The position numbers and the translations under genes were made by a program. A stretch of 33,608 nucleotides of DNA from a virus, in IMG/VR virus record IMGVR_UViG_3300010391_000006, positions 1-33,608 of that record; one strand, 5' to 3'. How positions within the stretch are numbered: the stretch's first letter is position 1; each line of letters starts with the position of its first letter. The notes beneath the pieces are model-generated. The model did no database searches. It worked only from the letters and a program-made list of their open reading frames with translations, and was not told the origin of the DNA. Of this stretch, positions 4,929 through 32,573 are shown one piece after another.

Positions 4929-6476
4929 ATGGGAAATAAACGAGTATCACAATTAACACCGATGACTGCTCCAGAAATAAATTCTGACGATTTATTTCTT
5001 ATTATTGATACTAGTGTAGCTGAATCGAAGAAAATATTAGTCTCTCAACTTGCTTCATTTTTAAGTGTTAGTGGAAGTCTTATTGCTTCTCATGCGACTA
5101 CATCAGATACAGCTTCTTATATTCTTGGAAGTAATGTATATGGACCTGTTCCAACAGCAACATACGCTACGACTGCAGGAACGGCTACTTCAGCTACTTC
5201 AGCTACTTCAGCCGACACAGCTATATCAGCTTCATATGCTAAAACATCTAGTTGGGCTGTAAATGTTGTAAATGGTAGTACATTAATAACAGGAGCAACA
5301 TATCCGATAACTTCTAGTTGGTCAGAAAAGTCTACTACATCAAATATTGCAACCACTGCTGTAAATCTTCTTTATATCCCTGGAGTATCAAAAAATACTG
5401 CATCATACGCTTTAAGTGCTAGTATATCAAATAGATCTATAACTGCTTCATTTGCAGAATTAGCAAAAACAGCATCGTATGCTCTGTTTACTCAAACCAT
5501 TCAAAGTATTCCAGATTCAGCATCTTTCTTGGTATTTTCTCCAAATAATGGTACAGCATCTTATGCTATTCGAGCTGGTAATGCTGGATTAACAAATTAT
5601 GGAATGTTTTTAGCTTTAGAACAAAGTTCATCATTTGCTATGTTAGATGATGTATCTGTTTTTTCATCTTTAACAACTCCACAAGAAACCACAATACAAG
5701 CAATAGGCACGGCTATATTGATATATACATCATCGGTATTTAACACAAATTCTCTTAATTTAAGATGCACAAATAGACTTACAGGTGTAACAAGTTCATT
5801 TGATGCTACTCAGGTTTCTTATAATGTAACGCCTGTTATGAATCGGTGGGATGATTTATCATTGGGGTCATTTCATATTCCTTTTGATTTAGTTGGTCAA
5901 GAATCATTATATGGAAATTATTTGGTAGAAGTAATTTCATCAGATTCTAGAAGTCTTCAATTAGATACTAATAAAACTGTAAGATTTTTAATTTCAAGTT
6001 ATAGCGATGTTATTGATGTTTCTACAGGTAGTTTAGTAGATTTATATATCGTTCCTACATCTTCTTTAGGTGGTGGTGCTAATATTACATTTTCATCTAT
6101 AATTGGTGGACCATTTTATGATTCGTTATCTGGATTATTATCTACAGGTTCATCTAATATTCTTGCTATTGATATATCAAGTCGAAGTATATCCGAAGTA
6201 TCATATCCGTGGAAATGTAGTAATTTAACCGATTTTAGTTGTTCATCAAATCCATCATTAACTCGGTTGAACTATTCATTTCCAAACAGTTTAGAAAATT
6301 TATATTGTTCTACATGTAGTATAACCACAATAGCAGATTTAAGTAATACTCAATTAGTTAATTTGGATTGTAATAATAATCAATTATACTTTTTGCCAGC
6401 ATTACCAAATACATTGGTAAATTTGAATAGTTCTAATAATCCTTTGATATTTTCACCAGCAACCTGGCCTTTGTAA
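4929..6476 (+). CDS. tail fibre protein with leucine-rich repeats, N-terminal part
   Basis: Paralogue 2 of the fibre set has the anchor KRVSQLTPMTAPEINSDDLFLIIDTS (residues 4-29), close to that of the first fibre. A shaft of TASYA-type repeats runs to about residue 215, including ATSATSATSADTA. A beta-rich region (about 240-385) follows, and then leucine-rich repeats from about 400, with units such as LENLYCSTCSIT and LVNLDCNNNQLYFLP. The reading frame stops at TAA 6474-6476 in the middle of the repeat array, and the same repeat pattern continues in the same frame to 6965. I therefore regard this as the first 515 residues of a protein of about 678. The upstream context is GGATAATTTATG with no Shine-Dalgarno site. 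Confidence 0.75.
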   Translation: MGNKRVSQLTPMTAPEINSDDLFLIIDTSVAESKKILVSQLASFLSVSGSLIASHATTSDTASYILGSNVYGPVPTATYATTAGTATSATSATSADTAISASYAKTSSWAVNVVNGSTLITGATYPITSSWSEKSTTSNIATTAVNLLYIPGVSKNTASYALSASISNRSITASFAELAKTASYALFTQTIQSIPDSASFLVFSPNNGTASYAIRAGNAGLTNYGMFLALEQSSSFAMLDDVSVFSSLTTPQETTIQAIGTAILIYTSSVFNTNSLNLRCTNRLTGVTSSFDATQVSYNVTPVMNRWDDLSLGSFHIPFDLVGQESLYGNYLVEVISSDSRSLQLDTNKTVRFLISSYSDVIDVSTGSLVDLYIVPTSSLGGGANITFSSIIGGPFYDSLSGLLSTGSSNILAIDISSRSISEVSYPWKCSNLTDFSCSSNPSLTRLNYSFPNSLENLYCSTCSITTIADLSNTQLVNLDCNNNQLYFLPALPNTLVNLNSSNNPLIFSPATWPL

Positions 6477-10340: not shown

Positions 10341-11011
10341 TTCATAAAAATGATAAAAATAGATGGTGTAGAAAATGTCCTATTTGTGATAAAGAACTTT
10401 TATGCTGTAATGAAAATTCTGCTAAATATCATGATAAATTAAAAAAAGAATGCAAAAGTTGCTGTCAAAAGGGTAAAAAAGCTTTTTGGTATGGAAAAAC
10501 AATGTCTAAAAAAACTAAAAGAAAAATGTCTGAAGCTCGAATTGGAATTAAATTATCAAAAGAAACTAAATTAAAATTATCACTGCAAAAACAAGGAGAT
10601 AAAAATCCTTTTTTTAAAAAGAAATTTTCTAAAAAACATAGAGAGAATTTAAGAATTGCCGCTTTAAAAAGATTAAAAAAACAAGGAATAATGGTTGCAT
10701 TTAATCCTCAAGCTTGTGAATTTATAGATGAATATGGAAAGAAAAATGGTTATAATTTTAGACATGCTCTTAATGGTGGAGAAGTGTGTTTATCAGGTTT
10801 TCCTGTGGATGGTTATGATAAAGAAAAAAATATTGTGTTTGAATATGATGAACGATATCACCGTTCTATTAGAAGAAAACGAAAAGATATTTATAAACAA
10901 AAATGTATAACTAAAACGATTAATCCAAAAATGTTTATTCGATATGATGAGTGGGATAATAGACTTTACGATGCTTTAACAAATACGGATTTATCATTAA
11001 ATAACCTATAA
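10337..11011 (+). CDS. homing endonuclease with NUMOD3 motifs
   Basis: This 224-residue basic protein begins with a cysteine-rich segment (WCRKCPICDKELLCC...CKSCC) that could bind zinc. It then has tandem NUMOD3-type DNA-binding motifs (GKTMSKKTKRKMSEARIG, IKLSKETKLKLSLQKQG, KKFSKKHRENLRIAALKR; residues about 54-118). The C-terminal half holds GFPVDGYDKEKNIVFEYDERYHR, which looks like the Vsr/EDxHD-type nuclease core of phage homing enzymes. It would cut genomes lacking the insertion and so spread itself. It overlaps the sigma gene by four bases (ATGA). It ends in an inverted copy of the next gene's promoter region, consistent with insertion between gene 55 and the 11033 gene. Confidence 0.75.
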   Translation: MIHKNDKNRWCRKCPICDKELLCCNENSAKYHDKLKKECKSCCQKGKKAFWYGKTMSKKTKRKMSEARIGIKLSKETKLKLSLQKQGDKNPFFKKKFSKKHRENLRIAALKRLKKQGIMVAFNPQACEFIDEYGKKNGYNFRHALNGGEVCLSGFPVDGYDKEKNIVFEYDERYHRSIRRKRKDIYKQKCITKTINPKMFIRYDEWDNRLYDALTNTDLSLNNL

Positions 11012-11032
11012 ACTCATCTATTTATAGGTTAT
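11001..11032. repeat. perfect 12-bp inverted repeat over late promoter
   Basis: ATAACCTATAAA (11001-11012) and its exact reverse complement TTTATAGGTTAT (11021-11032) flank the eight-base loop CTCATCTA. The left arm contains the last codons and stop of the homing endonuclease. The right arm is most of the promoter of the next gene. No T-run follows, so it is not a standard terminator. Confidence 0.85.
11019..11026 (+). promoter_or_regulatory. putative late promoter TATTTATA
   Basis: TATTTATA begins 14 bases before ATG 11033. It sits inside the 19-base block shared exactly with 3893-3911, and would drive the baseplate cluster. Spacing predicts a message with almost no leader. Confidence 0.6.
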
Positions 11033-11422
11033 ATGGATACCGACTTCGAAATTTTTAAAGGAAAATCCTTCAAGGATCTGTGCAGAGACATTTACTTTAA
11101 CCAAGTTCATCGAAAGGAACAGTTAGAAATCCTCATAAATGATCTTCGTAAGATGTGCACCAAAATAGATGATGCACCTCTTATTATTCCATTCATTAAA
11201 GACTATATTAATGCTGCCAATGTAAATGATGAACATCTTATTCGTTTAGCAGCTATCATTCAAAAGCTTATTGTTGCCGATGAACAGGCTAAAATGGCTT
11301 CAGGCGGACTCGGTATGTCGGATGAAGAGAGAAGGTCGATTATGAAGGAAATCAATACTGAATTTGATGCTATTGTTAAATCAGAGGAAACGGTGGTTAA
11401 TATTATAGAAAAGAAGACATAA
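11033..11422 (+). CDS. conserved protein upstream of baseplate hub
   Basis: This 129-residue helical protein opens DFEIFKGKSFKDLCRDIY. It continues with HRKEQLEILINDLRKM and APLIIPFIKDYINAANVNDEHLIRLAAIIQKL. I recall similar proteins directly before the gp5-like gene in marine T4-like phages, where they are annotated as conserved hypothetical. It is probably a structural or assembly factor for the tail. It starts the baseplate cluster from its own late promoter, and its stop is followed after one base by the ATG of the hub gene. Confidence 0.7.
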   Translation: MDTDFEIFKGKSFKDLCRDIYFNQVHRKEQLEILINDLRKMCTKIDDAPLIIPFIKDYINAANVNDEHLIRLAAIIQKLIVADEQAKMASGGLGMSDEERRSIMKEINTEFDAIVKSEETVVNIIEKKT

Positions 11423-11423
11423 T

Positions 11424-13133
11424 ATGCCTTACTGGAATACACCAAAAAATGCTTCAGTCAATCTTGATAGCAATACAATGCTATCGAGAGCAGTAACCAA
11501 AAATATTGAATTTTATGAGATTGAGCCTGCTGTTGTTTTGGATATTATTCTTGATAAAAACCATCCTTATTTTAGTGACCCAGGACAACCACAACACACT
11601 CTTAATTCTCAACAATGGCCTACTGATGTATCAGGAAATTTAGTTAAAAATACCGATCCTGATTACACATGGATGGGCAGAGCATTAGTTAGATTATATT
11701 ACAGTCAACAAATGGTAGAAAAAGAAGATTTAGTGTGGGCTATACCTCTTGAATCTAATATTTCTGAATATCCTCTTTTAAATGAAGTTGTAGGAATTGT
11801 AACATACCTTGGAAGATACTATTATACTCGTAAAATTAATTTATTTAATTGGCCTAACCTTAATGCTGATTTTACTATTGAAAAATCCATAGGAGGATTT
11901 AATCCTACTTCTGCTTCTCCTTTGGATGGAAATAGAGAATTAGTATTAGATTCCAATACTGGAGCAGATCTTCAACCATTCCAAGGTCCGATATCTTATA
12001 CTGCACCTAAATCTAATGGACAATTCAAAGGAGTTTTAGGAAGATATTTTTATATTAATAAGAATATTAGAAGTCTGAAACGTCGTGAGGGAGATTTGGT
12101 AATTGAAAGTAGATTTGGTCAATCTATACGATTTGGAGGATATGATGATAATCGAAATAATGATAAAGCTTATTTATTAACTAAAGATGATGGAAACAAA
12201 GACTATGTAGGAGATGGAACAAAGTATACTGTAGATGATAATATTGATATAGGTTCTGGGGGAATAGATGTTTCCGGAGGTGGGATTAATGCATATGGAA
12301 ATACCACTACACTTTATGAAGCAGGTGGTGGAAATCCTATGATTCTTATTAGAAATCGTCAAAGACCAATTAAAAATATTCCAGATGAAAAAAATGTCGG
12401 TGGTTATATGTTAGAAGATATAAATAACGATGGTTCTTCAATTCATATTACCTCCGGAATTACAATAAGTCAATTTAAAACTACTTGTTATAAAAAAATG
12501 TGGGGCACATATATCGCTCCAGAACAAATAGAATTTCAACCTCCAGGATCTACAAATTTTATATACCCAACCCCTTCAGGTGATCAAATTGTTGTAAATA
12601 GTGATAGAATTATAATTTCAGCCAAAAAATCTGAAATGTTTCAGTTTGCCAAAAAGAGGATGTCATTTGTTACCGATGGCGAATTTACAATAGATGCTCA
12701 CGATCAGATAGTGATCAATACAAATAACAAGACTGTCATAAATTCTCCGGCTATTTATTTAGGAGAATATAATCAAACAAATGAACCTGTTTTACTTGGA
12801 CAAACATCAGTAAATTGGATGTATGATTTGTGCCAGTGGTTGTTAACACATACTCATTGGTATAACCATGTTCATCCTGATTTTGACCGTTGGGGGGGAA
12901 CAACCGGTGACTCTATGCCAATGCAAACACAAACAACGGTTCAAAATGAAAAGTTGATTACTTTGAGAGATAAATTGAAAGATTTAATGAGTAGAAGAGT
13001 ATTTGTAACTGGCGGAGGATTTGCTCCTGGTAAAAATGGAGGAATTATACCAAATGGAGTCAATCCTACCACTATTGGTGTGTTAAGTGGAACTGGAGTT
13101 CCCGGTGGTTTTAATGGCCAAAACAAAAAATAA
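11424..13133 (+). CDS. 5: baseplate hub/central spike protein, gp5-like
   Basis: This 569-residue protein resembles the baseplate hub proteins called gp5 in marine T4-like phages. The N-terminal part (about 35-150) has a beta-rich, OB-fold-like look (VVLDIILDKNHPYF ... LVWAIPLESNISEYPLLNEVVGIVTYLGRYYYTRK). The C-terminal third has repeating short strands (FTIDAHDQIVINTNNKTVINSPAIYLG) typical of a beta-helical spike, then HTHWYNHVHP, a histidine cluster that may bind metal. There is no lysozyme domain, unlike T4 gp5. Its place before gp25 and gp6 supports the call. The start at ATG 11424 follows the preceding stop by one base, with weak GAAAAGAAG upstream. Confidence 0.7.
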   Translation: MPYWNTPKNASVNLDSNTMLSRAVTKNIEFYEIEPAVVLDIILDKNHPYFSDPGQPQHTLNSQQWPTDVSGNLVKNTDPDYTWMGRALVRLYYSQQMVEKEDLVWAIPLESNISEYPLLNEVVGIVTYLGRYYYTRKINLFNWPNLNADFTIEKSIGGFNPTSASPLDGNRELVLDSNTGADLQPFQGPISYTAPKSNGQFKGVLGRYFYINKNIRSLKRREGDLVIESRFGQSIRFGGYDDNRNNDKAYLLTKDDGNKDYVGDGTKYTVDDNIDIGSGGIDVSGGGINAYGNTTTLYEAGGGNPMILIRNRQRPIKNIPDEKNVGGYMLEDINNDGSSIHITSGITISQFKTTCYKKMWGTYIAPEQIEFQPPGSTNFIYPTPSGDQIVVNSDRIIISAKKSEMFQFAKKRMSFVTDGEFTIDAHDQIVINTNNKTVINSPAIYLGEYNQTNEPVLLGQTSVNWMYDLCQWLLTHTHWYNHVHPDFDRWGGTTGDSMPMQTQTTVQNEKLITLRDKLKDLMSRRVFVTGGGFAPGKNGGIIPNGVNPTTIGVLSGTGVPGGFNGQNKK

Positions 13134-13138
13134 TTAAT

Positions 13139-13731
13139 ATGAAAGCAGAAGATCTAGTAAGATTAATAGATAAATTGGTAGAAAAGAAATTAAATACCAA
13201 GGTAAAACAATTGATAAGAGAAGAAGTTTCTTCTCAAGTTAATAAAGTAATGGGTAAAATGCTTGTTGAGATGATTAAGAAGTAAAACAACCTAATTCAG
13301 ACTGGCATTCACAAGAAGAAAGTCCAATTCAAACAAGAGATCCAAGATTAAACTCTGTTTTAGCTGAAACAGCTCGAAGATCTCAACCATTACCCAGAAG
13401 AAACAGTTTGGTTGAATTAATGGATGGAGGATTTGATAAAATTGGCGGGGGGGTTGAACCAGCTTATACAAATGCTGGAAGTGTAGAACCGCCACCAAGA
13501 CCAAGAGTAGAACCTGATGGTACCAATATAGGATTTATTAAATCTATGCTGTCTGAAGGAGCCGTTATAGATCAACAACAATCTGTATTAGGAACAGATG
13601 CAGTTCCAGATGTATTAAAAGGTGTATTTAACAAAAATTTCAAATCGGTTATGAGAAAAATGGATGAACAAAAGAAAAATGGATCTCCAGGATTAATTAA
13701 TCCTAGTTTAGTTTTCTCTAATGATACATGA
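13139..13731 (+). CDS. hypothetical baseplate-cluster protein, with an apparent frameshift
   Basis: ATG 13139 opens a helical 48-residue stretch (MKAEDLVRLIDKLVEKKL ... VNKVMGKMLVEMIKK) that stops at TAA 13283-13285. Immediately afterwards another frame is open: VKQPNSDWHSQEESPIQ, running on to NSDT at 13731 through a proline-rich linker (VEPPPRPRVEP). Adding one base (A or G) within AAGAAG at 13277-13282 joins them into one 197-residue protein. The second frame has no ATG, only TTG 13408. The fused product has an N-terminal coiled coil, a disordered middle and a helical C-terminus (GVFNKNFKSVMRKMDEQKKNG). It sits between the hub and gp25 genes, with a four-base overlap with gp25. Function unknown. 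Confidence 0.6.
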
Positions 13732-24762: not shown

Positions 24763-25895
24763 ATGATCTTTAATCAATTTGACCAAACGGATATAGTTGC
24801 TGGTAGAACATCTAAAGTCGCTAGTGGATTTTGGCCAGACAGCACTACAGTATGGAGTGCTAGTTTAATCGAGAGTGGATTTTATGATCTAACACAATCT
24901 GCAGTTACTCCTTCTCCTTCATATGGTTCTTCAATCTATGATATAAGAAGAACAATGTATTATATTGATATATTTCCAGATTCTACTCATCATATAAATA
25001 ACGACCCTTATCTTTCTATTGCTTATGGAAATTTTTATGGAGAATTGGGGTCTGGTTCATTTAACTTAGATACAGGAAGTATTTTGGCATTTGCTCCTAA
25101 AGCAATTTATACTCAATATAAAAATCTTTTACTGGGAACTTCTAATGTAGAAGACCAATTTTCATTTACAAGTGGAAGTACCACTAGTACTGCTGATACT
25201 CCTAATGACATATATGTTCTAAATTTTTCTTCTTATAAGATGAAAGATAGAGTTGATGAGGGGGTATTTCAAATAAGTTTTACAGGTTCTAATGGATTAT
25301 TTACTTTTAGAGACGATTCTCCGTTTTTAAATCAAACGTATAATGTATATGATTTAGTTGTTGGAACCATCAATGATGCTACTACTACCACTCCAGCTTA
25401 CCCAGGAATTGGTCTTTTATATCCTAATGATGGGGTCTTGGTATTAAATGCTAAATTACTTGATAAACTTGTTGGATTATCTGTATTTGGATATAATTCT
25501 GGAAGTATTTCCGGAGTTACTTTAACTCCTCCAGGTTCAGTGGTTTCTACCACTTATAATCATCAAGCTTTATTTGCTAGTATACAACAATCTAACCAGC
25601 CTATAATTGTTCGTAAATCTGAATATGTTCCTGCACAACATTACTTTGTAAGAGTTAAGAATCGTGATTTTAACTATTCTAACAATCCTACTTACGTATA
25701 TGATGGAACGGAAGATAATATTCATTCCAGAGGAACAATTCGTTGGTCAGATTTCATTTCAGATCCGAGAACTTATGTAACTAGTTTGGTTTATATAACG
25801 ATAATAATGAATTAGTAGCTGTTGCTAAGCTTTCTAGACCTGCTGTAAAGGATTTTTCAACGGAACTTCTCATAAAAGTTCGGCTGGATTTCTAA
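24763..25895 (+). CDS. virion structural protein, with an apparent frameshift near the end
   Basis: The first frame ends at TAG 25815 after ...TYVTSLVYITIIMN. Adding one G to GG at 25788-25789 gives TYVTSLGLYNDNNELVAVAKLSRPAVKDF, ending STELLIKVRLDF at TAA 25893-25895, for a 377-residue protein. That ending matches the end of the 31644 gene (YVTSIGLYQGTELVAVAKL...FIVKMDF), which supports the repair. The body is beta-rich, with VASGFWPDSTTVWSASLIESGFY near the start and HYFVRVKNRDFNYSNNPTYV near the end, a pattern I recall in structural proteins of T4-like marine phages. It is probably a baseplate or tail-tip component. Confidence 0.72.
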
Positions 25896-27706: not shown

Positions 27707-29824
27707 ATGATTGCAAACATACAAAATCAAAATTTCGGATATTCTGTAGCAGTTGATAGTATTTGGGCTGCTGTCGGGAATCCAAGTTTATTGAGATATA
27801 ATCCTTTGACTTCTAGTTTGATAAGAACAGGATCGATAGAAGTTTTTAAGTATAATATTAATACTGATACTCATAATAAAAAAATGAATTTGTATAGGAG
27901 AATTGATAACACAGAGGTAATTTTCTTAACTACCGAATATAATACATCATCTATTCTAATAACTTCTGATTCTATTTTACACACAGAATATACTGGAACT
28001 ATTCCTATAACTTCTGATTTAGATATAATTGTAGATGAAGGATCATATTTCACGGCATCAGAAGATGGTTATGGATATTCTGTTGATATAAAAGGAGATA
28101 TATTAGTTGTTGGTTGTCCATATTTTAGAAGCACATTTAGTTCAAGTATTACACAATCACATACATTTTATGGATCAGGAAGTGTTGATGTATTTGATTT
28201 ATCTAAATTGAATATTGATCCATATGCTGTAAGAATTCCACCTGAAATAGTTAATCATTATTTTGGGCCTGGTGGAACCGATTTTGATTTAATTGGTGTG
28301 TCGGTTCCAGCCGGACAAAATTATAGATATGTATTTCTTCAAACTAAAGAAAGCACCGACCCAGAAAGTTATTTTCAAACAATATGTGTAGGAAATACAT
28401 CCAATTTGGGGGGGTTGGTATTTTTACAAACACATTATTATAGTGTTGATGAAATCGGAATTGATTTTAGAGTATTAGGAATTGTAGGAACTGATCCATA
28501 TTTAACTACAATTTATAATCCAAATTCTTCTGTATCAGAATCTTTTGGATACTCTGTTTCATTAAATGATAAATGGTTAGTTATCGGGTCCCCTTTAGAC
28601 TCTGGAAGTAAAGGCAGTATATTTTTATTTAGAAATGAAGGCATGCCTGATAGTTGGTCTCTCTACCAAAATATAACACCACCAAATGAAATAAATAGTG
28701 GAGATCAATTTGGTCATTCTGTAGCTTTAAATAAACAATCTGGTTCATATAGTGGAAGTTTAGTAGTGGGGACTTTAAAACCTAATAATTCCCGCGTATA
28801 CGAATACAACTTTGATGGAATAAACTGGAATAAAAGATTTACATTAATTCCTGATAATGCAACACAATATCCTCTTACATTTTATCCTACCATACCATTA
28901 TTCTCAGGGTCTTTTCCTAATACAGCAGATTCTTTTGGGTTTGATGTAGATATTTTTGAAGATACGATTATTGTTGGTGCTCCTACAGATAGAGCTATTT
29001 ATGAATATAGTGGATCTCAACTTTATAAACAGGGTGCAGTTTATTTCTTTGAAAGATGTCCTAATCCTGATATTGGTTATTATATAGCTAGAAAATCTTA
29101 TGGTAATAAAAACATAATAAAAAACAATCTTTTGGGATGGTCAGTCGGAATTTTTGGTCAGTATGTTGCCGTTGGTATTCCTAAAATAAATGCTGAGTCT
29201 TCCTCTATTTGTTATCTTCAAGGATCTCTTTTTCAAAATAATTATTGTGGTGATAGTATAGAAGAAACATTAGATGGTCAATATGCTCTATACAACAAAA
29301 CTATAGGAACGATACCTGATACATCTTTTATTGATTGGAATCTTCTCAATATTTATCAAATAAGAAAGAAATATCTTTCACAATATCGAACGTTTGGTTG
29401 GGCTGTAGATATTTCTGATCAATTTATAATAGTTGGTTCTCCTATGTTAATCTGGGGACCTACTACGGATATGTCATATAATAAAGATATACCATTTGGA
29501 TCAATTGTATTATCTCTTGCTAGTGGTTCAGCCATCTTAAATTGGGTTTATACAAACACAGAACAAGATGGATTTAACATTGAGAAATCTACAGATGGGA
29601 TTATTTACAATAACATTTATATTTTGTCTAGTTCTATTAGTAGGTCATATACAGATATAAATGTGTCTGTGAATAACACTTATTGGTATCGTGTAAATGC
29701 TTTCAATGATTTGGGGGTATCAGAATATTCAAACACCCCAAGTATATTCTTCCCGCCACCACCACCATCAGGCCCAATTGTTTGTCGGTTCAGAGTGGTT
29801 CTAGTACAGGTCCATCGGTCTTGA
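27707..29824 (+). CDS. giant adhesin part 1: FG-GAP propeller and first Fn3
   Basis: This is the first part of a protein of about 1305 residues (27707-31623). Residues 1-590 hold seven repeats of the FG-GAP type: FGYSVAVDSIWAAVGNP, GYSVDIKGDILVVGCP, FGYSVSLNDKWLVIGSP, FGHSVALNKQ, FGFDVDIFEDTIIVGAP, GWSVGIFGQYVAVGIP and FGWAVDISDQFIIVGSP. That number fits a closed seven-bladed beta-propeller. An Fn3-like domain follows (about 600-690, AILNWVYTNTEQDGFNIEKS ... NNTYWYRVNAFN). The frame then ends in SGPIVCRFRV and TGA 29822-29824. One T added to TTT at 29781-29783 continues it as SGPIVLSVQSGSS. Its likely role is host-surface binding. Confidence 0.75.
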   Translation: MIANIQNQNFGYSVAVDSIWAAVGNPSLLRYNPLTSSLIRTGSIEVFKYNINTDTHNKKMNLYRRIDNTEVIFLTTEYNTSSILITSDSILHTEYTGTIPITSDLDIIVDEGSYFTASEDGYGYSVDIKGDILVVGCPYFRSTFSSSITQSHTFYGSGSVDVFDLSKLNIDPYAVRIPPEIVNHYFGPGGTDFDLIGVSVPAGQNYRYVFLQTKESTDPESYFQTICVGNTSNLGGLVFLQTHYYSVDEIGIDFRVLGIVGTDPYLTTIYNPNSSVSESFGYSVSLNDKWLVIGSPLDSGSKGSIFLFRNEGMPDSWSLYQNITPPNEINSGDQFGHSVALNKQSGSYSGSLVVGTLKPNNSRVYEYNFDGINWNKRFTLIPDNATQYPLTFYPTIPLFSGSFPNTADSFGFDVDIFEDTIIVGAPTDRAIYEYSGSQLYKQGAVYFFERCPNPDIGYYIARKSYGNKNIIKNNLLGWSVGIFGQYVAVGIPKINAESSSICYLQGSLFQNNYCGDSIEETLDGQYALYNKTIGTIPDTSFIDWNLLNIYQIRKKYLSQYRTFGWAVDISDQFIIVGSPMLIWGPTTDMSYNKDIPFGSIVLSLASGSAILNWVYTNTEQDGFNIEKSTDGIIYNNIYILSSSISRSYTDINVSVNNTYWYRVNAFNDLGVSEYSNTPSIFFPPPPPSGPIVCRFRVVLVQVHRS

Positions 29825-29986
29825 GTTGGACCTTTACAGACTCCTTCCAAGATGGATTTAACATTGAAAAATCAATCGATGGAATTGCTTTCAATGACAT
29901 TAACATCCTTGCTGTTCCAGCGGCTAGAACGGATAACGATGCAGCCGTTTCTGTTGATAACACTTATTGGTATCGTGTAAATGCTT
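29673..29986 (+). repeat. exact 30-base direct repeat in Fn3 domains
   Basis: The 30 bases at 29673-29702 recur exactly at 29957-29986, encoding NTYWYRVNA and flanks in the first and second Fn3 domains. The offset is 284 bases; restoring the missing base between them makes 285, exactly 95 codons. This indicates a recent domain duplication. Confidence 0.88.
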
Positions 29987-31623
29987 ATAATATTTATGGA
30001 ACATCATCGTATTCCAATACTGCTAGTATCTATTATTTAATACCTATTCCATCAGGTCCAACAGTATTAACAGTAACAACCGGTTCTACATACCTACAAT
30101 CAATTGGTACTGGTTCTTCGATTTTGAGTTGGTCCTACACGAATACAACCGAAACAGGATGGAATATTGAAAAATCATCGTCTGCTGCACCTGGCTTTAT
30201 CAACATTAATACTCTTGTTATTCCGTCGCTTAGAGCGTATGAAGATTCGGCAAGTATAGATGCAAATAGCACCTATTGGTACAAAGTTCAGCCTTATAAT
30301 GGATACGGCACAGGTTCGTATTCTAACAATGACAGTGCATCATTTAGTAATATATTGTATTTCAGTCGGTCTTCGAAATATTATGTCAATCCAACAGGAT
30401 ATATTAACGAATCCGCCGGCGGTTGGAAAGGGTGTTTTGGATATAAGAATATTAATTTGACTAATCTTGATGTAAGTAACAATTCGTTAACCACACTCAA
30501 TTTGGTAAGTGCATCTTCCTTGACTGTTTTAACTTGTAGTTATAACAATCTAACATCGTTAGATGTGCGTTCAAATCCATCAATTGCTTTTCTATTTTGT
30601 AATAATAATTTACTTACCGACCTAAAAGTAAATTCAGGCAGTTCTTTAGCTTATTTATATTGTAACACTAATCAATTGACTTCATTAGATGTAACCAAAA
30701 ACCCAACCATTGACCGTCTTAATTGCTCAGTTAATAATTTAACTTCATTGGATGTAACCAAAAACACACTCATGACTGAACTTCGTTGTTTTAATAATTC
30801 ATTAACTGCACTTGATTTGAGTAAAAACACAATCATGAGTTTTGTGGATGCTGCTTTCAATAATATTACATCACTAGATATGAATTTGAGTGGTTGTAGT
30901 GTTAATCAGTTATATATTAGTAATAATCAGCTTTCGGGTCTAAATGACTTTGATAACTGCACTAATTTAAGTTGGTTGAATATTCAAAGCAACAATTATC
31001 CAACGATTAGTGTTGGTCGTTGGTCTGCTTCGTTGGATGTTTTGGGTATTGACGATAATCCTCTTGGTGGAGTTTTCGATGCAACTGCTTTTCCAAGCAT
31101 GAGCACATTTTATTGTAATAATAATGATATTACTAATCTTGACTTTAGTAATTGTAAGAAATTATCTCAAGTTATTTGTTATGCTAATTCATTTTCTACA
31201 CTAGATTTGAATCCTTCTTCTGGGTCATTAGAAGTGCTGAATTGTTCGATAAATCAATATCTCACATCATTAGATGTAAGTAAGTGTTATAAATTGATAG
31301 ATTTATCTTGTAATGAATCCGGTTTAACTTCACTTTCTATAAGTGGTTCATCGTTAACGTCGGTAGATGCTAATGATAATAATTTATCTACTGTGGATGT
31401 AGGTTCATGTCCAAATTTGATTACATTAGATGCTGCAAGAAATAGTATTCCATCAGGATCAATAAATCAAATTTTGATTGATTTGGATTCGTTTGGTAGT
31501 TTAAGTGGAACTGTTGATGTAAGTGGAAGTAATGAAGCGCCGACAGGATTAGGCATTACTGCTAGAACCAGTTTAGTTGGTAAAGGATGGACGGTAAATG
31601 ATTCTAGTGGAACATACCCATAA
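29782..31623 (+). CDS. giant adhesin part 2: Fn3 domains and leucine-rich repeats
   Basis: This is the continuation of the 27707 protein. The TTG at 29782 lies inside the joined sequence and is probably not a real start. It carries two Fn3-like domains (SVLSWTFTDSFQDGFNIEKS, SSILSWSYTNTTETGWNIEKS), each ending in the aromatic TYWY(R/K)V motif. From about 30450 it has some 15 leucine-rich repeats of the LxxLxCxxNxLTSLDVxxN kind (LTVLTCSYNNLTSLDV, LAYLYCNTNQLTSLDV). This repeat type is common in Bacteroidota surface proteins. The last unit gives way to SGSINQILIDLDSFGSLSGTVDVSG and a short C-terminus. It would form the distal recognition arm of the adhesin. Confidence 0.75.
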   Translation: MSVQSGSSTGPSVLSWTFTDSFQDGFNIEKSIDGIAFNDINILAVPAARTDNDAAVSVDNTYWYRVNAYNIYGTSSYSNTASIYYLIPIPSGPTVLTVTTGSTYLQSIGTGSSILSWSYTNTTETGWNIEKSSSAAPGFININTLVIPSLRAYEDSASIDANSTYWYKVQPYNGYGTGSYSNNDSASFSNILYFSRSSKYYVNPTGYINESAGGWKGCFGYKNINLTNLDVSNNSLTTLNLVSASSLTVLTCSYNNLTSLDVRSNPSIAFLFCNNNLLTDLKVNSGSSLAYLYCNTNQLTSLDVTKNPTIDRLNCSVNNLTSLDVTKNTLMTELRCFNNSLTALDLSKNTIMSFVDAAFNNITSLDMNLSGCSVNQLYISNNQLSGLNDFDNCTNLSWLNIQSNNYPTISVGRWSASLDVLGIDDNPLGGVFDATAFPSMSTFYCNNNDITNLDFSNCKKLSQVICYANSFSTLDLNPSSGSLEVLNCSINQYLTSLDVSKCYKLIDLSCNESGLTSLSISGSSLTSVDANDNNLSTVDVGSCPNLITLDAARNSIPSGSINQILIDLDSFGSLSGTVDVSGSNEAPTGLGITARTSLVGKGWTVNDSSGTYP

Positions 31624-31643
31624 TTTATGAAAGAGAGTTTACA

Positions 31644-32573
31644 ATGACACAATTCATACCTAATTTAGACGAACTTGGAGATCTTTCAGGTAAATCTTAT
31701 ATTTACAATTTGAGAAATCTTAGAGAAAATTTTTATGTAGGTAATGTATTTTATCGAAATGGAAAAATTGTAATCATGGCTTCTGGATCTGCTTTTGAAG
31801 GACTTCTTCTTTCAAATGCAGATAATAGTTCATATGAATATGATTTGAGTTTTAAATCCAAATTAGTTATATTTGAAAAACAGATTGCATGTTCGGTTGA
31901 TATAGGAGAATTTAATGTAAGTACAAATCCTACAGCTATTATATTACCTACGCCTTCTTTTGATATAAATAACAATGGTAAATTTGATTTTCAAGATTGT
32001 GATGTGCTTTTAAAGTATATGATGTATAAAAGTACAGAAATAACAGGAAATCCTCAAACAAACTGGAGTTCTTCTATTATAAACACCGCAACTAATGAAG
32101 AATCATCGGTTTATAATATGTATAGTTCTCAATATCCTGAAGGATCGTCTGGATTATTCACTTCTAGTTATTCTTATATAAATAATAGTCTTTACAACGA
32201 TTTAGATTTCAATCAAGACAATAAAATTAATATACTTGATATGAATATTTTGTGGAAATACTTTATAAATCGTTTAAATCAAAAGAATTATGAAACTTAT
32301 ATAACACCAAATTCTCAGAGAAAGTTTTTAAGTGACATTCTAGATTTTATCAATGAAAAAACTCTTAGAGGAGAGCCACCAGCTATAAATTCAAACTTTT
32401 TAGATTATGGGAGATTATCTCAAGCAGACCCAACAGGTTCATATTTAGCTTCATACGTTACATCTATTGGATTATATCAAGGAACTGAATTGGTGGCTGT
32501 AGCTAAGTTGGGGTCTCCAATTAAAATTACTCCAGACTTTCCAATGAATTTTATTGTGAAAATGGACTTCTAA
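31644..32573 (+). CDS. structural protein with dockerin-like calcium loops
   Basis: This 309-residue protein has an N-terminal beta-rich domain (about 1-100), then two EF-hand/dockerin-type loops. Loop 1 is DINNNGKFDFQD (107-118) followed by CDVLLKYMM; loop 2 is DFNQDNKINILD (188-199) followed by MNILWKYF. The acidic or amide residues at positions 1, 3, 5, 9 and 12 fit calcium binding. Dockerins pair with cohesins, but the loops here are about 70 residues apart, more than usual, so function may differ. Its C-terminus (YVTSIGLYQGTELVAVAKL...) matches that of the repaired 24763 protein. GAAAGAGAG, 10 bases upstream, is a fair ribosome binding site. Confidence 0.68.
   Translation: MTQFIPNLDELGDLSGKSYIYNLRNLRENFYVGNVFYRNGKIVIMASGSAFEGLLLSNADNSSYEYDLSFKSKLVIFEKQIACSVDIGEFNVSTNPTAIILPTPSFDINNNGKFDFQDCDVLLKYMMYKSTEITGNPQTNWSSSIINTATNEESSVYNMYSSQYPEGSSGLFTSSYSYINNSLYNDLDFNQDNKINILDMNILWKYFINRLNQKNYETYITPNSQRKFLSDILDFINEKTLRGEPPAINSNFLDYGRLSQADPTGSYLASYVTSIGLYQGTELVAVAKLGSPIKITPDFPMNFIVKMDF

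Follow-up and report, generated by a model that had tools for sequence, protein, structure and literature searches.

Predicted calcium loops in a tail-region open reading frame

The window, meaning the whole 33,608-nt stretch of DNA that was analyzed, from a large uncultured phage (IMG/VR record IMGVR_UViG_3300010391_000006), carries close to one end an open reading frame (ORF) with two predicted Ca2+-binding loops of the dockerin type. The features discussed below are all on the plus strand. The basis for each is given in brackets, and residue numbers for the last six refer to the 309-aa ORF.

24763..25895, +, tail-region ORF ending in a copy of the module that lacks the loop pair; the second half of the module is in another frame at 25785-25895 (alignment)
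27707..29473, +, propeller of the FG-GAP/integrin-alpha-like type, covering residues 1-589 of ORF 27707-29824; relatives have it fused to the pair-bearing part (PF14312, E = 6.2e-31)
29474..31643, +, fn3-fn3-fn3-LRR segment between the propeller and the pair-bearing part (fn3 frames; PF12799, E = 7e-16)
31644..32573, +, 309-aa ORF with the last propeller strand and a phage C-terminal module apparently interrupted by a dockerin-like pair (homology)
31734..31934, +, first half of the module, VGNVFYRNGK ... EFNVSTNPT, residues 31-97 (pair-free copies elsewhere)
31962..31997, +, putative Ca2+ loop 1, DINNNGKFDFQD, residues 107-118 (family conservation)
31998..32204, +, 69-residue linker between the loops, residues 119-187, mostly helical in the model (DSSP)
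32205..32240, +, putative Ca2+ loop 2, DFNQDNKINILD, residues 188-199, followed by the helix MNILWKYF (PF00404 and conservation)
32445..32573, +, second half of the module, SYLASYVTSIGLY...LVAVAKLGSPIK...FIVKMDF, approximately residues 267-309, with the stop codon (tblastn, alignment)

Both DINNNGKFDFQD and DFNQDNKINILD are in frame within ORF 31644-32573, and in the predicted model each leads into a helix (VLLKYM, in DSSP helix H116-132; NILWKYF, in H197-207). The linker contains modeled helices H116-132, H151-162 and H169-183. The Pfam profile Dockerin_1 (PF00404) matches residues 188-208 with E = 1e-5, at 26.1 bits against a cut-off of 22.9; it is the second repeat alone that scores in this ORF, the first being weaker by sequence. 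In a six-frame genome search, the single Dockerin match in the window was below the cut-off, and when the PDB was searched with the ORF using phmmer, dockerin chains topped the list with weak scores. A first-pass annotation, made from the sequence alone, had described two twelve-residue loops of the dockerin type, each followed by a helix, and had called their spacing of roughly 70 residues unusual. Both statements hold: the linker has 69 residues, and that of a classical type I dockerin, for example 1DAQ, has about 20. A chance match as the source of the loops is ruled out by the profile E-values together with the conservation of the ligands across the family.

The ORF is homologous to the C-terminal part of much larger proteins encoded at loci L001-L009 and L014-L084. 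In these relatives, the pair domain forms the end of a longer open frame, which at complete loci runs to 780-2,160 residues, and FG-GAP repeats precede the domain in the relatives scanned. The first-pass annotation had assigned the loops to a phage structural protein. Their location in the tail region agrees with this, but the ORF does not represent a complete protein by the standard of its family. Since the relatives are fused to the propeller, a stand-alone protein of 309 aa can be ruled out as the ancestral state.

Conservation of the loops across relatives

A single-sequence scan of IMG/VR gave 9 loci, and a profile scan gave 80 loci of the 120 relatives that it found. Both loops are present in all 54 distinct IMG/VR relatives aligned, which with the window make an alignment of 55 sequences over the two loops. 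In loop 1, Asp is found at position 1 in 55/55 sequences, Asn at position 3 in 49/55, Asn or Asp at position 5 in 52/55, Asp at position 9 in 53/55 and Asp at position 12 in 54/55; in loop 2, Asp occupies positions 1 (55/55), 5 (54/55) and 12 (55/55). The counts and the loop sequences together place F-hand ligands at positions 1, 3, 5, 9 and 12 of both loops, with Asp at the last. Mean majority conservation across the 55 sequences is 0.57 for the ORF as a whole; it rises to 0.89 at the ligand positions and falls to 0.42 in the linker (residues 119-186). The ligand positions stay near-invariant down to ~30% identity. Judged from this alignment, the loops are under strong constraint. Some distant members have textbook dockerin loops, for example DVNGDGKFDIIDLSFIYRYILGS and DIDGDGVVSANDAKLLARYFVG. 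Dockerin_1 is matched at E <= 0.1 by 48 of 50 homologues (best E = 4.9e-11), and in L072 two stretches match, with 38.6 bits. The gap between the loops is 61-87 aa in most relatives and 185-205 aa in L080-L084.

Do the two loops pair?

An AlphaFold model of the 309-aa protein chain by itself was built from 50 homologues. The pLDDT is 85-96 over residues 101-240 and confidence is low in the two halves of the module. With this model, Foldseek returned nothing significant. In the VIA re-alignment, the top row is the dockerin 4fl4_A, which aligns over 57 residues (model residues 105-234) with Z 3.7 and rmsd 2.8, a Z score low enough that chance arrangements are possible in this range. Of the four rows shown with Z >= 2, three are dockerins, each aligned over both loops (4fl4_A, 8ajy_B and 2vn6_B). 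The low Z can be attributed to the small size of the domain, and an aligned range that covers both loops is what a paired arrangement, its linker looping out, would give. The first-pass annotation named a predicted fold with unpaired loops as a result that would refute it; on the present evidence, namely the low-scoring VIA rows across both loops set beside the empty Foldseek search, they seem in the model to meet in the manner of a dockerin despite the long spacer. An insert of (GS)8 between helices 1 and 3 of a dockerin has been studied in the cohesin-bound state (PMC4728124); it is at the equivalent place, and so the linker there can take extra sequence.

The likeness to type I dockerins (PF00404; 1DAQ, 4FL4, 2VN6) extends to two F-hand repeats, a twelve-residue loop that ends in Asp, a following helix with a Lys/Arg-Tyr pattern, a profile match above the cut-off and, more tentatively, the predicted pairing. 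There are differences as well. A type I dockerin is a domain of about 60-70 residues in all, with a linker of about 20; here, most relatives have 61-87 residues between the loops and five have a LysM-type insert. In addition, the pair is inside a phage module rather than at the terminus of an enzyme, no cohesin was found with it (see below), and the recognition residues differ.

Could the segment instead be a generic EF-hand-like bundle with no specific relationship to dockerins, in which the ions merely stabilize folding? A helix (H169-183) precedes loop 2, the profile matches sarcoplasmic Ca-binding protein 9l5m over the whole segment (E = 7.1e-5), and EF-hand models in Pfam match up to 15 of 50 members. 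Against these stand the far broader Dockerin_1 matches noted above, the dockerins that fill the best structural rows, and the loops themselves: a canonical EF-hand pair is helix-loop-helix with Glu usual at position 12, whereas here that position is Asp in all but one case and DSSP assigns no helix before loop 1 in the model. We therefore consider a generic bundle unlikely.

A phage module with and without the pair

The pair is located between a first module half of the form VGNVFY...EFNxSTNPT and a second of the form PYITTIGLYN...AVAKL...FIVKxD. The second half is modeled as three strands (E271-279, E282-294, E301-308) and has tblastn matches in Flavobacterium phage immuto and Microcystis phage Mel-JY01. 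Loci L085-L092 and LR756508 contain both halves with a short stretch between them and lack the Ca2+ pair. Further pair-free copies are found in L093 (first half in part) and in the two cultivated phages. Those of immuto (QQO91845.1) and Mel-JY01 (WWT39517.1) share the C-terminal pattern GNVxY ... EFNxxxNPS ... PYITTIGLYN...L.AVGK and differ in having no pair; several such proteins have Laminin_G_3 lectin domains ahead of the module. The window itself has a pair-free copy at the end of ORF 24763, which has homologues in L022, L053, L059, L068, L078 and L080 and an intact example in L105 (1028-2077). The module thus appears to be a recurring C-terminal part of tail-region proteins. As L085-L092, LR756508 and ORF 24763 all have it in a pair-free form, the F-hand pair is probably an accessory insert. 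Its placement within a loop of a single domain is likewise read from sequence comparison, the module halves being poorly modeled. Searches of Pfam and PHROG gave no family for the module itself. Whether it contains the pair or lacks it, the module is a marker of such tail-region proteins and offers a handle for finding candidate receptor-binding proteins in phages with few annotated fibers.

The linker between the loops can hold a domain of its own. In L080 and L083, the stretch between the loops contains a LysM domain (PF01476, E = 1.2e-9 and E = 3.8e-7, respectively), and L081, L082 and L084 have a similar long insert there. Accommodation of a folded domain in the linker agrees with two half-sites that come together in three dimensions.

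Is there a cohesin partner?

If the pair were a true docking device, it would bind a partner with a cohesin fold, either a virion protein or a protein on the host surface, and so tether a fiber or the phage itself. The first-pass annotation suggested that the phage might in this way attach an enzyme or fiber, or hold on to a cohesin-bearing host surface, and proposed a search of the phage and likely hosts for cohesin domains. The dockerin-type loops with Asp at position 12, the Lys/Arg-Tyr pattern on both helices and the dockerins among the best structural rows are all compatible with docking. On the phage side, the search gave no partner as far as the contig fragments reach: there is no match to the cohesin family PF00963 in the 42 pair-bearing contigs, including the window, of up to 369 kb and mostly fragments. 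Contigs of 365, 369, 279 and 251 kb are among them. Absence from incomplete contigs is an absence of recognizable phage-encoded cohesin, and a diverged cohesin or one encoded by the host could be missed. As a general explanation, a cohesin on the same contig is ruled out by this search.

A scan of genome_contigs gave a single match, a contig from a Flavobacteriales metagenome-assembled genome with a bare-module phage relative, too weak for naming a host. Cohesin (PF00963) was found in 1 of 52 genomes of the one Flavobacteriales family examined, to which that match belongs. Flavobacterium phage immuto, a phage with the bare module, encodes an annotated cohesin-domain protein (PF00963, E = 2.5e-10), which counts in favor of docking.

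The residues at the contact positions also bear on the question. In Clostridium thermocellum dockerins, the residues that contact cohesin are Ser-Thr and Lys-Arg (PMC4728124). The corresponding positions in this family are Phe-Gln/Leu-Lys in the half with loop 1 and variable/Trp-Lys in the half with loop 2 (in the window, FQ/LK and IL/WK). These residues depart from the Ser-Thr/Lys-Arg code, the two halves do not resemble each other in them, and positions 10-11 of loop 2 are among the least conserved. Other dockerin groups use other contact residues. Conserved aromatic and basic residues are found on both helices (Leu-Arg-Tyr and Trp-Lys-Tyr-Phe), and these could equally form a face that binds a partner. 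Given the divergent contact positions, the absence of cohesin from the pair-bearing contigs and its rarity in the one Flavobacteriales family, docking to a cohesin is unsupported, and we regard it as rather improbable.

Propeller fusion, gene order and a split gene

The part of the protein that precedes the pair is found in the window as FG-GAP repeats in ORF 27707, 52% identical to L014. One member of the family, L014 (901 residues), was modeled, and the model matches integrin alphaM over residues ~6-622 (VIA Z 31.9, rmsd 3.9, 353 residues aligned), such that both the repeats and the propeller fold are found, the former in the window and the latter in the L014 model. Integrin-alpha and FG-GAP proteins share this propeller head, and the BFVD matches are FG-GAP proteins of phages and giant viruses; the difference is that the head is followed here by a phage C-terminal module with the apparent F-hand insert. 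The family propellers also differ from FG-GAP proteins in being accompanied by inserted fn3/LRR (in the window) or RCC1-like repeats (in L067 and L074). The propeller ORFs of L067 and L074 (1,540 and 1,501 aa) have RCC1-like and other repeats inserted, which marks another insertion hotspot.

The gene order conserved among relatives is o24110, a gene of the ORF 24763 type, genes of the o25951/o26950 type, the propeller with the pair, and a RuvC-like gene; upstream in the window are baseplate wedge genes of the gp25 and gp6 types. A DNA search with 27.0-33.6 kb gave no match among phage records, and tblastn of L078 and L042 against cultivated phages gave one bare module, a weak propeller match and nothing else.

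In the window, the propeller gene is split. The last modeled propeller strand, GKxYIYNL, is on the pair-bearing ORF, and the 2.2-kb fn3/LRR segment separates it from the remainder of the propeller upstream. The end of that segment resembles the natural C-terminus of LRR genes, and in L042 and L053 a separate LRR gene is immediately upstream of the propeller gene. The split is due either to recombination or to misassembly. Three frameshifts in conserved genes, at ~25.79 kb (~25785, in ORF 24763), ~29.80 kb (in the fn3/LRR ORF) and ~33.28 kb (~33283, in the RuvC-like gene), suggest a sequencing or assembly error in the contig. That the window gene is a decayed relic, broken by the fn3/LRR segment and by frameshifts, with a product that may be non-functional here, would account for the displaced propeller and the broken frames, but is very improbable given that the ORF is open, shares 70-78% identity with the closest homologues, keeps the ligands, has a purine-rich stretch (GAAAGAGAG) ahead of its ATG and corresponds to one open frame in relatives, and that several of the frameshifts look like errors of sequence or assembly.

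A second LRR-bearing ORF is found in the window at 4929-6476. It has repeats rich in Ser, Thr and Ala (of the SADTAxSASYAKTSS type) and matches the same PHROGs (21719 and 7816) as the fn3/LRR ORF.

Interpretation and functional implications

What might the pair do? We think it probable that it serves a phage adhesin as a structural scaffold dependent on Ca2+, with a job in structure and presentation rather than in cohesin docking. Specifically, the two loops would make up one F-hand pair of the dockerin type that binds Ca2+ and lies as an insert between the halves of a module, itself the end of an adhesin with an integrin-alpha-like propeller head. Ca2+ would hold the two F-hands together and so create a rigid element between module and propeller. 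The module may anchor the protein to the virion, in which case the propeller would face the host. The long linker would loop out and tolerate inserted binding domains, such as the LysM domain of some relatives.

A broader version of this proposal, possible but distinctly tentative, would make the split dockerin a plug-in socket shared by a large group of uncultured phages. The F-hand pair clamped by Ca2+ would then be the scaffold in an adhesin with an integrin-like head, the linker of the pair would serve for the exchange of cell-wall-binding domains such as LysM between phages, and Ca2+ might switch rigid presentation of the head on or off.

The proposed scaffold has several implications. 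In cellulosomes, dockerins are the familiar plugs. In the phages described here, an adhesin appears to have acquired a pair of this type, which dozens of lineages have retained with its two halves spread apart; in some of them, the space between has come to host a LysM domain. First, this suggests that F-hand pairs can serve as an intramolecular Ca2+ clamp and as a scaffold for insertions. Second, it raises the possibility that these uncultured phages need Ca2+ at a defined site in order to adsorb.

FG-GAP proteins and EF-hand-like sites have both been described from phages before. For example, the CHAP domain of the phage lysin LysGH15 has an "EF-hand-like" single Ca2+ site that acts as an activity switch (PMC4022735). 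Like the family described here, it is a phage protein with a calcium site in a dockerin-like F-type loop; it differs in having a single site, in being an enzyme and in its unrelated fold. A resemblance of gene 40 of phage VvAW1 to a dockerin-type-I cellulosome protein has been remarked on but not pursued (PMC3558961), and a survey of jumbo phages makes no mention of dockerin, cohesin or FG-GAP (PMC7824862). In the open-licence literature, we came across no description of a phage adhesin with a conserved dockerin-like pair, or of such a pair with LysM in its linker.

Other cohesin-domain and F-hand-like proteins

Three neighboring genes of phage immuto (L104, record positions 10527-13422) encode proteins that appear to be secreted. 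One is a C-type lectin protein containing an F-hand-like loop, another is hypothetical, and the remaining one is the cohesin-domain protein, the C-terminus of which resembles a T9SS sorting signal. It is possible that these genes are a real cohesin/dockerin-like set in a phage. Some of the six-frame "Dockerin" matches are single loops in unrelated proteins, such as DSDINNDGKVNKQDKYL in L100 and L097, with a similar one in immuto. The lone F-hand-like loop DSDINNDGKVNKQDKYLLNRR is found in L100 and L097 (in a 277-aa ORF) and in L096 (immuto), in proteins that are otherwise unrelated, and is preceded by a DPVGKE/DAVGKE motif.
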